Shown here: positions 38,045 through 44,314 of the stretch, in pieces
Numbering within the stretch: the stretch's first letter is position 1
How the letters are laid out: every line of letters starts with the position of its first letter
DNA from: Candidatus Poribacteria bacterium
GTDB taxonomy: Bacteria; Poribacteria; WGA-4E; WGA-3G
Direction of reading: 5' to 3'
Length of the DNA: 64,000 nucleotides
Assembly: GCA_022819945.1 (NCBI GenBank)
Contig: JAJEGI010000051.1
Coordinates: forward strand, 62,001 to 126,000
The notes under the pieces: generated by a model
What the model was told of the DNA's origin: nothing
Seen by the model: only the letters and a program-made list of their open reading frames with translations
The model's database searches: none
Program-made: the position numbers and the translations under genes

Positions 38045-39040
38045 ATGAAATTGCTTCAGGTGAATGACCTCCGAAAATACTTCCCTATCCAAAAAGGGAT
38101 CCTCCAACGCACCGTCGGCTATGTAAAAGCCGTCGACGGGATCAGTTTCGACGTGCAACGCGGTGAAACACTCGGTCTCGTCGGTGAGAGCGGCTGTGGA
38201 AAAACGACTGCCGGACGCTGCCTCCTCCGGCTAATACTACCGACAAGCGGGAGTTTCATTTTCGGTGAGGAACAGGTAGATCTGGCGAAATTGACGCACC
38301 GCGAGATGCAACCTTTTCGCAAACGCATCCAGATGATCTTCCAAGACCCTCACGCATCACTCAATCCACGGATGACGGTAGCCGATATCGTCGGCGAGCC
38401 GATGCGAGTCAATCGCATTGAGAAAGGGACAGCACTTCAAGATCGGATTGTAGAACTGCTGGAATCTGTCGGCTTGAAATCCCAAGATATGCGTCGCTAC
38501 CCACACGCCTTTAGCGGTGGGCAACGCCAACGCATCGGTATTGCGCGCGCATTAGCACTCCAACCTGAACTCATCGTCGCAGATGAGCCGGTCTCTGCAT
38601 TGGATGTCTCCGTACAAGCACAGATCCTCAACCTGTTGGCAGAACTCCGAGAAGAATTCAACCTCTCTTACATCTTTATCGCACACGATCTCAGCGTTGT
38701 TGAACACATCAGCGACCGCGTCGCAGTCATGTACCTCGGCAAAATCGTGGAGATTAGCGATGCCGAAACGCTCTATGAATCGCCAAAGCACCCGTACACC
38801 GAAGCGTTAATATCCGCCGTCCCACTTCCCGATCCGAATGCGCAGCGCAAACGTGAGCATATTCGCCTTGAGGGGGATGTACCTGATCCATCACAACCAC
38901 CGACTGGATGCTATTTTCATCCAAGATGTCGTTACGCAACCGATATATGTAAACAGGAAACACCAGAACTCCGAGAGGTTACATCCGGGGTTCAGGTAGC
39001 ATGCCATCACAGTGATACGTTGGAGTTACAGGGAGTTTAG
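38045..39040 (+). CDS. dppF: Peptide ABC transporter ATP-binding protein (DppF/OppF-like)
   Basis: 331 residues, the partner ATPase to DppD. Motifs: [63 protein letters not shown], and the C-terminal [15 protein letters not shown]. It would form a heterodimer with the upstream ATPase on the membrane permeases encoded at 42090 and 43220. There is no ribosome site before the ATG, which fits the leaderless start suggested by the -10 element. The next gene starts 2 bp after its stop. Confidence 0.92.
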
Positions 39041-39042
39041 CG

Positions 39043-39987
39043 ATGTCAACACAAAAAATATCCCCAGATGAACTCGCGGCATGCAGAAAGCGGTTGGAAC
39101 AGGTATGGAAGAACCGAGTGATGGATGATGGACTGCTTCATCGGGCATGGGACACTGCATATCAAGTAGCGACACTGCTTTACGAACAATTCGGTGCAAC
39201 CCAAGTCGTCGTTTTCGGTTCACTCACAGAACCTATAGGTTTCACAAACAGGTCGGATATTGATATCGCCGTGTCTGGACTCTCCACGGATGATTATGAT
39301 AAAGCGTGGAGAATGGTTATGGACTTCAAATCAGGATTTAAAATAGATTTCATTAACTTCGATACGTCGAAAGGGCTCTTCCGGGAGCGAATAAAATACC
39401 AAGCGATACCTATTGAAAAAGGATCCCACTCAGGATTGTGGCGGACGCTTTACGAACATCTGCACCGACAAGTTTTCCCTACCGAGGAGGGAGACATTTA
39501 CGAAATGAACCGAAAACGACTCACACAACGCATCAACGACGAACTTGATAAAATAGAGGGAACGCTTGAAAGAATCCACAGGGGATTGGAAAAGATTGAG
39601 GAGGTTCCCATTGATGTTACAGAATTCATCGAAAATACAATCGCTACAGATCTCGCTGACATCTATCATGGCATAGAGCGGATTTTTGAACGGATTGCCC
39701 GTGAGGTTGATACGCTTATGCCGACTGGAAGTAGATGGCATAAAAATCTACTTGCACAAATGGCAGAAAAGCGACCGGAACGCCGCCCAGTAATTTCCGA
39801 AAACACACACCGCGAACTGGGAGAACTTTTAAAATTCCGTCACAAGGTGACCAACATCTACGGCAAGGAATTGAGATATGAAAAAACCATACCGCACGCA
39901 AAATCAATTGAGACACTCTTGGCAAACGTATCTCAAGACCTAAACACGTTCACTGACTCCCTCGAAAAGCGTGAAGAGGACGCTTAA
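39043..39987 (+). CDS. Fused MNT nucleotidyltransferase-HEPN (HepT-like) protein in the transporter operon
   Basis: 314 residues with two parts. Residues 35-145 are an MNT nucleotidyltransferase: VVVFGSLTEPIGFTNRSDIDIAV with Gly59-Ser60, Asp72 and Asp74. Residues 160-300 match the HepT-like ribonuclease domain (DLADIYHGIERIFERIAREV, then LLKFRHKVTNIYG with Arg266-His267 and Tyr). This is an antitoxin-toxin pair in one chain. Met155 (ATG 39505) is preceded by GAGGAGGGAG, so the HEPN half might also be made alone. The gene starts 2 bp after dppF and ends 1 bp before the binding-protein ATG, which is a surprising place for a toxin module. Confidence 0.75.
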   Translation: MSTQKISPDELAACRKRLEQVWKNRVMDDGLLHRAWDTAYQVATLLYEQFGATQVVVFGSLTEPIGFTNRSDIDIAVSGLSTDDYDKAWRMVMDFKSGFKIDFINFDTSKGLFRERIKYQAIPIEKGSHSGLWRTLYEHLHRQVFPTEEGDIYEMNRKRLTQRINDELDKIEGTLERIHRGLEKIEEVPIDVTEFIENTIATDLADIYHGIERIFERIAREVDTLMPTGSRWHKNLLAQMAEKRPERRPVISENTHRELGELLKFRHKVTNIYGKELRYEKTIPHAKSIETLLANVSQDLNTFTDSLEKREEDA

Positions 39988-39988
39988 A

Positions 39989-41929
39989 ATGCGAAAACTA
40001 ACAAAAACATCTCATCTTGCAGTTTGGCATCTCATCTTGCTGATTTACATTATCGGATGTTCGGGGAACCCATTAGAGGATACTTCCAATTTCCCCAGTG
40101 GGATTGAAGCGAAAGAGGCACCGATGTGGGCAAAACAGGTCGCCGAGGGCAAACTCCCGCCACTGTCAGAACGGCTCCCAGAAAATCCGCTTGTCGCCAA
40201 AACGAATTTTGATGGCTATGAAGAACCCGGTCCCTACGGCAGCACGTGGCACCGGTTTCACACGCATCCAGATTTGGGGACATGGAAGATGACCGCAGGC
40301 TATGCACCCCTCATCCGCTGGAAATTTGATGCCTCCGGTTTGGAACCCGGTTTAGCAGAATCATGGGAATTTAACGAAGACGGCAGTATGCTAACGTTGC
40401 ATCTCCGCAAAGGGGTCAAGTGGTCGGATGGACATCCATATACGTCTGCCTCATTCGCTTACTATTATCAACTCTGTCTTGATGAGCGACACAAGTACGG
40501 CGCGCCTGTCTGGTGTAAGGTCAACGGCATCCCGATGGAAGTTGAAACACCCGATGACTACACGATTGTGATGAAATTCGCTGGGCCCAACTGGCTCGTA
40601 CCGCTTTGGTTGGCGACAGGCTTTTGGTGGTGCAATCAATACAACATCCCAGAACACCACATGCAGCAGTTCCATCCAGACAGCAACCCAGCGTATACCG
40701 ATTTCATCCGATTCGAGAAAGAAAATATCCCACACCAAAATCCGGAACGTCCGACATTGTGGCCCTGGCGGGTGACAAAATATGAAAAGGGTGGCTTCCG
40801 TGTTGAACTCGAACGCAATCCCTATTACTACGTCGTTGATACACTCGGCAGGCAACTCCCGTATATCGATAGAGTCAAGACGAGTTTGGTCCCTGAACCC
40901 CAAGTTCGTGTGCTTAAAATCCTCGCAGGCGAGATTGACTGCCAATACCGCGGAATGGAACTCCGAGATCTCGCGCTCTATCTGAAAGGACAGAAAAAGG
41001 GGAACTATACGGTACGACGCTGGAAAAGCACCGCTGGCGCGCAACCCGCGATCCTGATTAACTGGACCGCGCCCGACCCCGTGTTAAGAAAAATTATCCG
41101 CGACCAACGGTTCCGAAAGGCTCTCGCTTATGGGATCGACCGTGTAAAATGTAACGAGATCGCATGGCGCGGATTGTTGGAACCACAAGCAGCGACGGTT
41201 AGCCAAGAGGGATGGCACTTCGCTGATGAAGACGGACAGACGCTTTTTGAGGAGTGGAAACGCGCCGATGCCGACTTTGACATCGATGCGGGGAACCGCC
41301 TCCTTGATGAAATGGGACTTACAGAACGTGATAAGGACGGTTATAGACTACGACCCGATGGTCAACGGATTGAGATGCTCATGGATGTGCCGAGCTCCAA
41401 TCTCAACAGCCAAGAAAATGACATCGGGCTGATTATTCAAGAAGGATGGGAACAACTCGGCTTGAAAACCCTGCTCTATACGCCACCGGGTGCCGAATTG
41501 AGTCTCCGTCGTACGCTCGGCAAATTTACAATCAGTATGCACGGTGAAGCGGAGATGGATCTCTTCACGTATCCCGACTGGGTATTTCCGACACTCCCGA
41601 AGTATTGGCATCCCAAGGTAGGGAAATGGTATGAAACCGGCGGTGAAAAAGGTGAACCCGCTACTGGACCGCTAAAGAAGCTGCTTGATTTATACGATGC
41701 GATTAAGCGTGAACCCGACGAGAAACAGCGACATCAATATGTTCGGGATGCAGTCAGGATTCATATTGACGAGGGACCGTTTCACCTCGGTTCCGCAGCG
41801 CGTTCGCCGTCGCTCTTAGTCGTTGCGAACCATTTTCACAATGTCCCAAACGACGGCATTTTAGGGCCGTGGGCAATTGTTACACCCGCAACCCATTATC
41901 CCGAACAGTGTTGGATATCTAAGGAATAG
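39989..41929 (+). CDS. ABC transporter substrate-binding lipoprotein (SBP family 5)
   Basis: 646 residues, the size of large DppA/OppA-type binding proteins. A lipoprotein signal ends in LIYIIGCSG, so Cys would be acylated and the protein tethered outside the inner membrane. Family features include LVPSLAESW-like GLAESWEFNEDGSMLTLHLRKGVKWSDG and FRKALAYGIDR. I chose the ATG at 39989 (after GAAGAGGAC); GTG at 39971 is an alternative. It follows the MNT-HEPN gene and precedes the two permeases. Peptides are the usual cargo, but sequence does not settle it. Confidence 0.88.
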   Translation: MRKLTKTSHLAVWHLILLIYIIGCSGNPLEDTSNFPSGIEAKEAPMWAKQVAEGKLPPLSERLPENPLVAKTNFDGYEEPGPYGSTWHRFHTHPDLGTWKMTAGYAPLIRWKFDASGLEPGLAESWEFNEDGSMLTLHLRKGVKWSDGHPYTSASFAYYYQLCLDERHKYGAPVWCKVNGIPMEVETPDDYTIVMKFAGPNWLVPLWLATGFWWCNQYNIPEHHMQQFHPDSNPAYTDFIRFEKENIPHQNPERPTLWPWRVTKYEKGGFRVELERNPYYYVVDTLGRQLPYIDRVKTSLVPEPQVRVLKILAGEIDCQYRGMELRDLALYLKGQKKGNYTVRRWKSTAGAQPAILINWTAPDPVLRKIIRDQRFRKALAYGIDRVKCNEIAWRGLLEPQAATVSQEGWHFADEDGQTLFEEWKRADADFDIDAGNRLLDEMGLTERDKDGYRLRPDGQRIEMLMDVPSSNLNSQENDIGLIIQEGWEQLGLKTLLYTPPGAELSLRRTLGKFTISMHGEAEMDLFTYPDWVFPTLPKYWHPKVGKWYETGGEKGEPATGPLKKLLDLYDAIKREPDEKQRHQYVRDAVRIHIDEGPFHLGSAARSPSLLVVANHFHNVPNDGILGPWAIVTPATHYPEQCWISKE

Positions 41930-42089
41930 TTATCAGTTTGCCTTGCAGTGAGAGTTCGGCTAACCTGATACGCAGGTTAGCCTTTCAGTGGTCAGTTAAG
42001 GAGAACTTTCTGCATATCAACAGATTCCGTTATATGAATGCCTTAACTGAAAACTGTTAACTGACTACTAATAATAAGGAGACACACTC

Positions 42090-43076
42090 ATAATTACCTA
42101 TATCATTCGCCGGTGTTTCATCGCTATTCCGACACTTCTGGCGATTTCTATTATCTCTTTTATCATCATCCAACTTCCGCAAGGCGATTACCTCGACCGC
42201 GAAATCCAACGGTTAGAGGAGGAGTTCGGCGATAGCAGCTCGCTCGCACAAGTCGAGGAATTGCGCGAACGCTACGGGTTAAATGATCCCTTATGGAAAC
42301 GCTACTTCATCTGGATTAGCGGTTTTGTACGCGGCAACTTCGGCGAGTCGTTTGAGTATAAGCGCGAAGTCGATGAACTGATATGGGATCGGATCGCCTT
42401 CACGCTTGTTATCTCTGTCGGATCGCTCATCTTCACCTATGTTGTCGCTATTCCGCTCGGAATTTATTCCGCCACGCATCAATACAAATGGTCGGATCAT
42501 TTCCTTACTTTCCTTAGTTTCGTCGGCATGTCAATACCGGCGTTTCTCTTAGCACTCTCGTTGATGGTATTTGCGTTTGACATCTTCGGCGTTCCGCTAT
42601 TTGGACTGTTTTCATCTTACTATGAAGGCGCGCCGTGGACATGGGGCAAACTCGGCGATCTTTTTAAACATCTCTGGATTCCAGTAATTGTCGTCGGCAT
42701 TAACGGCACCGCAAGTCTAATGCGTATCATGCGTGGCAACCTGCTCGATGTGTTAGGGCAGCCTTTCGTTCAGACAGCACGCGCAAAGGGGCTTAAAGAG
42801 ATCGTCGTTGTCGGGAAACATGCCGTGCGGATAGCAATCAATCCACTCATCAGTATTTTAGGGATGAGTCTGCCCGGTATCCTCTCAGGTTCAGCGATCG
42901 TCTCAATTGTCTTAGGCTTGCCGACAGTCGGGCCGATTCTCTTACGCAGCCTCCTGAACGAAGACATCTACCTCGCTGGCACACTGATTATGATGCTGAG
43001 CCTCCTTTTGGTTATCGGCAATTTGCTTGCTGATATAGCCCTCGCTTGGGTAGATCCGAGGATTCGCTATGAATGA
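42090..43076 (+). CDS. dppB: ABC transporter permease (DppB-like) with a non-AUG start
   Basis: 328 codons. The family N-terminus TYIIRRCFIAIPTLLAISIISFIIIQLPQGD is encoded from 42093, but no ATG, GTG or TTG occurs between the in-frame stop TAA (42072-42077 region) and 42261. AAGGAG (42076-42081) is placed correctly for an initiation codon at ATA (42090-42092, spacing 8) or ATT (42093-42095). One base change, ATG to ATA, would explain it. The rest is normal: about six membrane segments and the EAA loop (ARAKGLKEIVVVGKHAVRIAINPL). Starting at 42261 would delete the first membrane helix. Confidence 0.8.
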   Translation: MITYIIRRCFIAIPTLLAISIISFIIIQLPQGDYLDREIQRLEEEFGDSSSLAQVEELRERYGLNDPLWKRYFIWISGFVRGNFGESFEYKREVDELIWDRIAFTLVISVGSLIFTYVVAIPLGIYSATHQYKWSDHFLTFLSFVGMSIPAFLLALSLMVFAFDIFGVPLFGLFSSYYEGAPWTWGKLGDLFKHLWIPVIVVGINGTASLMRIMRGNLLDVLGQPFVQTARAKGLKEIVVVGKHAVRIAINPLISILGMSLPGILSGSAIVSIVLGLPTVGPILLRSLLNEDIYLAGTLIMMLSLLLVIGNLLADIALAWVDPRIRYE

Positions 43077-43219: not shown

Positions 43220-44314
43220 ATGAAACTTACAATCGAGACAACAGAAGATATTGAGGGTACAGGCGACCCTTGGGCAGATGGCGGGCAGCTGAGTTACCGT
43301 CAACTCATCTGGCGACGGTTCCGTAAGAATCGGATGGGTGTTATCGCGGGTGCCCTTTTGCTGCTTTTTTATATCCTTGCCAGCGGTGCTGATTTCTTCG
43401 CGCCTTACCACTACAACGAAATCAACATGCGACTGCGGCACGTCCCACCCCAACGCCTCCATTTTTCTCTCGAAGATGGATTCTATGTTCACGGCTTGAA
43501 ATCTGTCCGCAACCCCGAAAGCCTTGAATTAGAATTCACTAAAGATATGGAGCAACGGCATCCGGTTGAATTCTTTTTCAAGGATACCGACGGCAAACGA
43601 CACCTCTTCAGCTCTGCGGGGCCCATGTTCCTGTTGGGCACCGATCGAATGGGACGCGATCTACTTTCACGGATCATGTACGGGGCGCGTGTCTCGATGA
43701 CACTCGGCTTGGTCGGTGTCTTTTTAAGTATCGTTCTCGGTTCTATCCTCGGCACTGTATCTGGATATTGGGGCGGATGGGTCGATAACCTGATCCAACG
43801 TATTATTGAAGTCCTTTCAGCGTTCCCTGACATTCCACTGTGGATGGCACTCGGTGCCGCACTCCCACCCGGTTGGTCGAGTATCCAGATATACTTCGGG
43901 ATTACGATCATTTTGTCAATTATCCGTTGGGGTGGTTTAGCACGGCAGGTGCGCGGAAAGGTCTTGGCATATCGGGAGAGCGATTTCGTTATGGCAGCAC
44001 GGGCTGCAGGCGCGGGACATTGGCATATCATCACGAAACACCTGCTACCCGGATGTTATAGCCATATCATCGTTATCGCCACACTCGCGATCCCCGGCAT
44101 GATTTTAGGCGAGACCGCACTCAGCTTCTTAGGATTGGGCATCCGTCCGCCGATGACGAGTTGGGGCGTGCTATTAGAGGAGGCACAGCGTGTCACCGTT
44201 CTGCTCCATTACCCGTGGCTCATCTTTCCAGCCGTGCCGGTGCTCGTCGTCGTCATCGCCTTTAACTTCTTAGGAGACGCGCTCCGCGATGCCGCAGACC
44301 CATATTCAGATTAA
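43220..44314 (+). CDS. dppC: ABC transporter permease (DppC-like)
   Basis: 364 residues. After a polar N-terminus comes the first membrane helix (MGVIAGALLLLFYILASGADFF), then a long periplasmic loop (about 60-140) that is larger than in E. coli DppC, LGTDRMGRDLLSRIMYGAR, and the permease core with EAA motif VMAARAAGAGHWHIITKHLLPG, ending in LGDALRDAADPYSD. It completes the transporter with DppB. The preceding gap 43077-43219 has a palindromic-family sequence (CCTTGCGGTTCGG, near 43085). No ribosome site is evident before the ATG. Confidence 0.9.
   Translation: MKLTIETTEDIEGTGDPWADGGQLSYRQLIWRRFRKNRMGVIAGALLLLFYILASGADFFAPYHYNEINMRLRHVPPQRLHFSLEDGFYVHGLKSVRNPESLELEFTKDMEQRHPVEFFFKDTDGKRHLFSSAGPMFLLGTDRMGRDLLSRIMYGARVSMTLGLVGVFLSIVLGSILGTVSGYWGGWVDNLIQRIIEVLSAFPDIPLWMALGAALPPGWSSIQIYFGITIILSIIRWGGLARQVRGKVLAYRESDFVMAARAAGAGHWHIITKHLLPGCYSHIIVIATLAIPGMILGETALSFLGLGIRPPMTSWGVLLEEAQRVTVLLHYPWLIFPAVPVLVVVIAFNFLGDALRDAADPYSD

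Follow-up and report, generated by a model that had tools for sequence, protein, structure and literature searches.

The dppB gene of the window (the whole analysed stretch of 64,000 nucleotides from a Candidatus Poribacteria bacterium) encodes a permease subunit of an oligo/dipeptide ABC transporter. Its frame is open through 43076 and encodes a complete permease. The DppB/OppB type follows from the presence of both BPD_transp_1 and BPD_transp_1_N and from the nearby genes, which encode an SBP_bac_5 protein, a second permease and an ABC ATPase (Table 1).

Table 1. Features of the dpp cluster and of the dppB start region, in window coordinates.
Feature	Coordinates	Strand	Domains or basis
ABC transporter ATPase gene (dppF-like), further upstream	38045..39040	+	ABC_tran, oligo_HPY
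Solute-binding protein gene, family 5 (dppA-like), upstream of dppB	39971..41929	+	SBP_bac_5
Shine-Dalgarno TAAGGAG	42075..42081	+	sequence reading; GGAG core invariant among relatives
dppB, oligo/dipeptide ABC permease subunit, 328 codons and stop	42090..43076	+	BPD_transp_1, BPD_transp_1_N
dppB start codon ATA	42090..42092	+	family conservation; Pfam N-terminal profile position 1
ATT, second codon, judged not to be the start	42093..42095	+	relatives have GTT or GGC
TTG, codon 58, first canonical in-frame start	42261..42263	+	judged not to be the start
dppC-like permease gene, ATG start, downstream of dppB	43220..44314	+	BPD_transp_1, OppC_N

The dpp cluster also includes a gene (39043–39984), placed after the ATPase gene and before the solute-binding protein gene, that fuses a polymerase-beta-type nucleotidyltransferase with a HepT-like domain. 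Such a nucleotidyltransferase and a HepT-like domain usually form a toxin–antitoxin pair of two genes. The gap between dppA and dppB (41930–42075) contains short repeats of the type aactgaaaactgttaactgac, and many relatives have similar yet differing repeats there. In one locus (L011) the gap is only a few bases long, and the Shine-Dalgarno element (SD) lies inside the end of dppA. The dppB paralogues in the same genome (L002, L003) have GTG or TTG near the frame start as candidate starts.

In the window, ATG, GTG and TTG are all absent from the dppB frame upstream of TTG 42261. The in-frame stop TAA at 42075–42077 overlaps the SD, the same bases being the first three of TAAGGAG. The hexamer AAGGAG (42076–42081) is followed by a spacer of 8 nt and then by adjacent ATA and ATT codons. 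The initial annotation had noted a properly spaced AAGGAG and the lack of a canonical codon before codon 58, and the coordinates confirm both. It had further named ATA or ATT as the apparent start and placed ATA 42090 where MITYIIRR would begin; of the two, ATA is borne out by the distance from the SD, by the Pfam profile and by the conservation in orthologues. The match to the BPD_transp_1_N profile (positions 2–111) begins at residue 6 of P0001, a translation that itself starts four codons ahead of the ATA; hence profile position 1 corresponds to the ATA codon. The ATT at 42093 was rejected as a start, since its spacing to the SD is longer and some relatives have GTT or GGC in its place. TTG 58 was rejected as well, since the first membrane helix would be lost. 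No unusual mRNA folding was found around the start (z 0.68). We class dppB among genes with near-cognate starts, as its N-terminus is coding, yet has no canonical start there, and as an ATA conserved in relatives is situated at the SD distance. Judged by its sequence context, the translation start of DppB at ATA 42090 is well supported.

The alignment of 30 species bears on the status of the segment before TTG 58. Among codons 2–57, the amino acid is invariant in 49 of 56, and 42 of these 49 show synonymous variation; by this pattern, the segment is translated and evolves as protein. The GGAG at positions −12 to −9 is identical in all 30 species, and most columns upstream of −17 vary. No canonical in-frame codon is present upstream in 26 of the 30 loci, the other four having one 8 to 29 codons upstream. 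Within eight codons downstream of the ATH (ATA, ATC or ATT) none of the 30 has a canonical codon, the first occurring at least nine codons in.

A pattern scan of 58 family genomes yielded 39 dppB matches, 38 with ATA and one with ATC (genome G002). The pattern fixed the start as ATH, and no row was dropped from the counts. Matches were found in 37 of the 38 genomes of the window's genus, in both genomes of the genus g19 and in none of the 18 genomes of the sister genus g18, where the zero concerns the ATH pattern alone and says nothing on the presence of the gene or on a canonical start. As the pattern required ATH, any genome with ATG would appear to be missing. The sole non-match among the 40 genomes of the window's genus and g19 is G014, in which dppB is cut by the contig end, and thus none in these two genera is missing through ATG. 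The comparison of orthologues suggested by the initial annotation hence supports one of the options listed there, that of a rare initiator codon.

At the level of individual loci, the aligned start codon was read in 32 close orthologues, which are the loci from named assemblies with at least 92% identity and the 5′ end present (L034–L061, L063, L073, L075, L076). It is ATA in 31 of them and ATC in one. The twelve distant orthologues (75–84% identity; L062, L064–L072, L074, L079, with L077 and L081 left out) have ATG in eleven cases and GTG in one. Loci without the 5′ end (L078, L080, L082) were excluded from this reading. Since the distant orthologues have ATG or GTG, the AUA start is probably derived in this family. 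Seven of the distant loci (L067–L072, L079) come from genomes labelled Latescibacterota and Gemmatimonadetes, and their DppB is 75–76% identical; a transfer of the dpp operon between phyla is possible.

The conservation of the codon should be compared with what the rest of the gene allows. A single transition would convert ATA to ATG. Changes of this kind are common in dppB: of the 24 Lys, Glu and Gln codons whose amino acid is invariant in the 30 species, 23 have A in some species and G in others at the third position. Third-base G is absent from codon 1 in the same species; one of the 24 control columns likewise lacks it. Three internal Ile columns (98, 149 and 316) have ATA in 26–28 of the 30 species, almost as well kept as the start, and hence the constancy of ATA alone is weak evidence. 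The telling fact is the absence of ATG, not the constancy of ATA. Judged from this single gene and its alignment, selection on the start codon is suggestive, not conclusive.

Three further genes of the clade behave, by their sequences, like dppB, that is, at least three more genes appear to have weak starts. Their products (IF3, Rpe and a TauE/SafE permease) were confirmed with Pfam.

The infC gene encodes IF3, the factor that guards the choice of start codon. With the third base left free in the pattern, ATA is at the apparent start in all 56 matched genomes of the 58, the matches in G077, G079, G080 and G081 being assigned from the pattern alone; 20 rows with two mismatches lying off the infC site were dropped from the counts. 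In all 30 genus loci read, the next canonical codon downstream lies 20 or more codons away. The start at ATA is less certain here than in dppB, because seven of the 30 loci have in-frame TTG and GTG five and three codons upstream, inside the SD stretch, and because this stretch is GGGGGTG, not GGAGG, in 24 of the 30. In the infC leader of the window's genome (L083, 1965–2075, minus strand), GGGGGUG and AUA can share a hairpin formed by GGUGUG and UACACU around AAAAA. The GUGU...ACAC arrangement is seen in nearly all genus infC loci read; L184 has ACAT. Twelve of 200 shuffled sequences fold as well (z −1.66). The hairpin may be a second control layer or may account for a part of the conservation.

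The rpe start is ATT in 34 and ATC in three of the 37 matched genomes, out of 38 in the genus, again with the third base free; eight rows that came from another gene (ACACC instead of GCNCC) were dropped. The codons immediately flanking the ATT or ATC vary. A canonical in-frame codon is absent upstream in 25 of 30 loci and present in five. Neither of the two g19 genomes matched the rpe pattern. Among the 18 genomes of g18, two have ATG, one GTG and five a non-start codon, and ten yield no rpe match.

At the site examined in tauE, which encodes the TauE/SafE permease, 46 of 55 matched family genomes have ATC and nine have ATT (third base free, no row dropped); 37 of the 38 genomes of the window's genus are among those matched. 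The upstream sequence was read within the genus, so outside it the ATC or ATT counts as the codon at this site and not as an established start. Of 29 genus loci, 28 have GGAG in place, 21 have no in-frame canonical codon upstream and seven have one. Across the genus, A, C and U interchange at the third base of these starts, and G is never seen at dppB, rpe or tauE; infC keeps AUA.

A gene for a GT2 glycosyltransferase (G021:2156532, ATC) was considered as another conserved case and rejected, since 23 of the 28 loci read (L294–L323, with L317 and L318 not included) begin with ATG or have one close to the start. In the other five the codon is ATC or ATA and no ATG is close by. As read from these loci, the GT2 start flips between ATG and ATC or ATA within one genus; it is a natural switch series and shows turnover.

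The frequency of such starts was assessed with a coding-potential scan, which flags frames whose coding signal sets in ahead of the first canonical start. In the window, one of 45 gene frames was flagged, namely dppB (20.6 bits). The same scan of E. coli K-12 (300 kb, 248 frames) also flagged one frame, infC with its annotated AUU start. In 2.4 Mb of the genome G021 there were 11 flagged frames out of 1828, of which three (tauE, rpe and GT2) have an AUH codon that follows a 7-base SD match and heads the coding signal. The scan is blind to AUH starts with a canonical codon close by; thus it misses infC and dppB of G021, and it also misses pcnB of E. coli (ATT).

The other flagged frames of G021 were set aside. 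Five (1603214, 1211773, 2233894, 2223246, 1007563) have no AUH or CTG codon listed at an SD match of at least 5. In two (2403148, 1356283) the AUH codon has an SD match of just 5 and precedes the first canonical codon by 16 and 12 codons, respectively. In one (309682) an ATT follows an SD match of 7, but it is one codon before the first canonical, ordinary start. Some of the unexplained frames may be frameshifts. Two of them, 1603214 (contig C1) and 2403148, have a long strong coding signal ahead of any canonical start and no convincing start site, and by eye are thioredoxin-like.

A census of strong SD sites gave 28 AUH codons against 25.2 expected at SD matches of at least 6, and 12 against 6.8 at matches of at least 7. 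In the latter set ATA alone was seen six times against 1.9 expected, some of these codons directly preceding ATG. General AUH usage in the clade is not supported, as there is no clear genome-wide excess; hence a large regulon is unsupported. AUH starts are restricted to a handful of genes and do not reflect a relaxed start rule.

Near-cognate starts are already known, and dppB adds a further gene. The number of characterised non-canonical starts is very small, and start prediction builds largely on ATG, GTG and TTG (PMC5472188). Among the listed papers on Poribacteria with start codons or translation initiation, titles and opening lines of abstracts make no mention of weak starts in this group. 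The infC gene starts with ATT in E. coli and ATC in Streptomyces (PMC5472188) and with AUA in S. aureus (PMC13009471). The autocontrol of infC resembles the present case in the AUH start and the SD-like element, and the infC of this clade also has AUA at the apparent start; unlike IF3, however, DppB is a transporter subunit, hence there is no closed feedback loop, and its regulation would follow by analogy. The sigR gene of Streptomyces has a GTC start repressed by IF3, with GTC in 32 and GTT in two of 34 species (PMC5472188). As in dppB, its third base drifts among non-G bases only and the SD is strong and conserved. In contrast to dppB, for which both points are presumed, sigR has been shown to be repressed by IF3, and its product, a sigma factor, to be harmful in excess.

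Other genes provide looser parallels. In S. aureus, ccpN and citZ (AUA) and cvfC1 (AUU) reach about 10% of the expression from AUG in poor medium, and ccpN up to 30% in rich medium (PMC13009471). They share AUA or AUU starts with dppB, but the genes are different ones, initiation in S. aureus depends on an extended pairing with the SD, and no common ancestry is implied. The E. coli pcnB gene (annotated ATT) also has an AUH start after an SD-like stretch, although it encodes a single enzyme and not an operon transporter subunit.

The mechanism we propose is as follows. The SD element would position the 30S subunit at AUA 42090, where the ordinary fMet-tRNA(CAU) would read AUA with a mismatch at the third position; the mismatch of AUA with the CAU anticodon follows from the codon, and the pairing is presumed. 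A tRNA with the CAU anticodon and a GGG/CCC anticodon stem was found in G021 in a search covering 47% of the genome, and this stem we take to be an initiator-type feature. The IF3 of the clade has both domains (Pfam). By analogy with other bacteria, IF3 would discriminate against the AUA mismatch, leading to slow initiation and a low DppB level. In an in vitro survey, strong pairs at the third base were favoured by IF3, which reduced initiation with AUU/CAU; the fMet test of that survey does not include the AUA/CAU pair (PMC10158994). Measured cases elsewhere suggest that DppB synthesis would rise as IF3 becomes scarce. That AUA would limit the expression of dppB is deduced from the AUA, AUU and GUC starts measured elsewhere (PMC13009471, PMC5472188). 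The weak codon would be kept by selection, the likely benefit being a low or stoichiometric dosing of the permease; dosing of DppB relative to DppA and DppC is a guess. We infer both the link of this start to IF3 and its purpose.

Thus our main reading, with a probability of about 0.75, is that dppB starts at AUA, a selectively kept near-cognate codon discriminated by IF3, and that DppB is held low. A first alternative keeps AUA as the start but regards it as no more than tolerated: an ancient change, neutral or mildly deleterious, that the strong SD has fixed in place and that has no regulatory role. One isolated weak-start gene could arise in this way, and some internal ATA codons of dppB are also well kept. 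However, with ATG one transition away and A/G variation common in the control columns, ATG is absent from all 39 matched genomes, and no genome of the window's genus or g19 is missing because of it. Moreover, purifying selection on AUG starts has been reported, with one switch to AUU among 61,358 ancestral AUG starts (PMC5622118), and infC, rpe and tauE show the same behaviour as dppB. We therefore consider mere tolerance improbable. Four conserved AUH genes in a single clade might also mean that AUA, AUU and AUC are efficient there owing to an altered initiator tRNA, IF3 or ribosome, so that no repression takes place. This is markedly unlikely: AUH codons have no clear genome-wide enrichment, ATG dominates the strong-SD sites (177 of 522 against 15.3 expected at matches of at least 6), IF3 retains both domains, and the tRNA search, which covered 47% of one genome and could thus have missed a second initiator, found a tRNA whose initiator features look ordinary.

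Readings that deny the AUA start fare worse. Canonical codons are present downstream in the loci read, and TTG 58, or a nearer TTG, ATG or GTG in some relatives, could be the true start of a shorter DppB. Their positions differ among species, initiation there would remove or cut into membrane helix 1, codons 2–57 are constrained at the protein level, and the conserved SD precedes ATA; we regard such a start as very improbable. The initial annotation, which rested on one genome, had also allowed for a sequencing or assembly error and for a mutation. An error or a recent change confined to this genome is excluded for practical purposes, as AUH is common to the assemblies of 39 species. Given the orthologues, G at 42092 in the reads is very unlikely. 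Finally, upstream canonical starts are possible, judging by the in-frame codons, in some species (in four of 30 loci for dppB, seven of 30 for infC, five of 30 for rpe and seven of 29 for tauE).

A broader reading joins the four genes into a small set governed by IF3: infC (AUA), dppB (AUA), rpe (AUU/AUC) and the TauE/SafE exporter (AUC/AUU). Their starts would be selectively kept, nutrient transport and pentose-phosphate flux would be tied to the level of free IF3, and the dppB member would postdate the split of the family from its AUG/GUG relatives. As a whole we hold this tentatively and consider it rather doubtful.

Start callers limited to canonical codons would misplace the N-termini of these four genes. 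As four genes in one group of uncultured species illustrate, a comparison of related genomes can by itself reveal weak starts that selection maintains, and these genes offer material for asking what weak starts serve.
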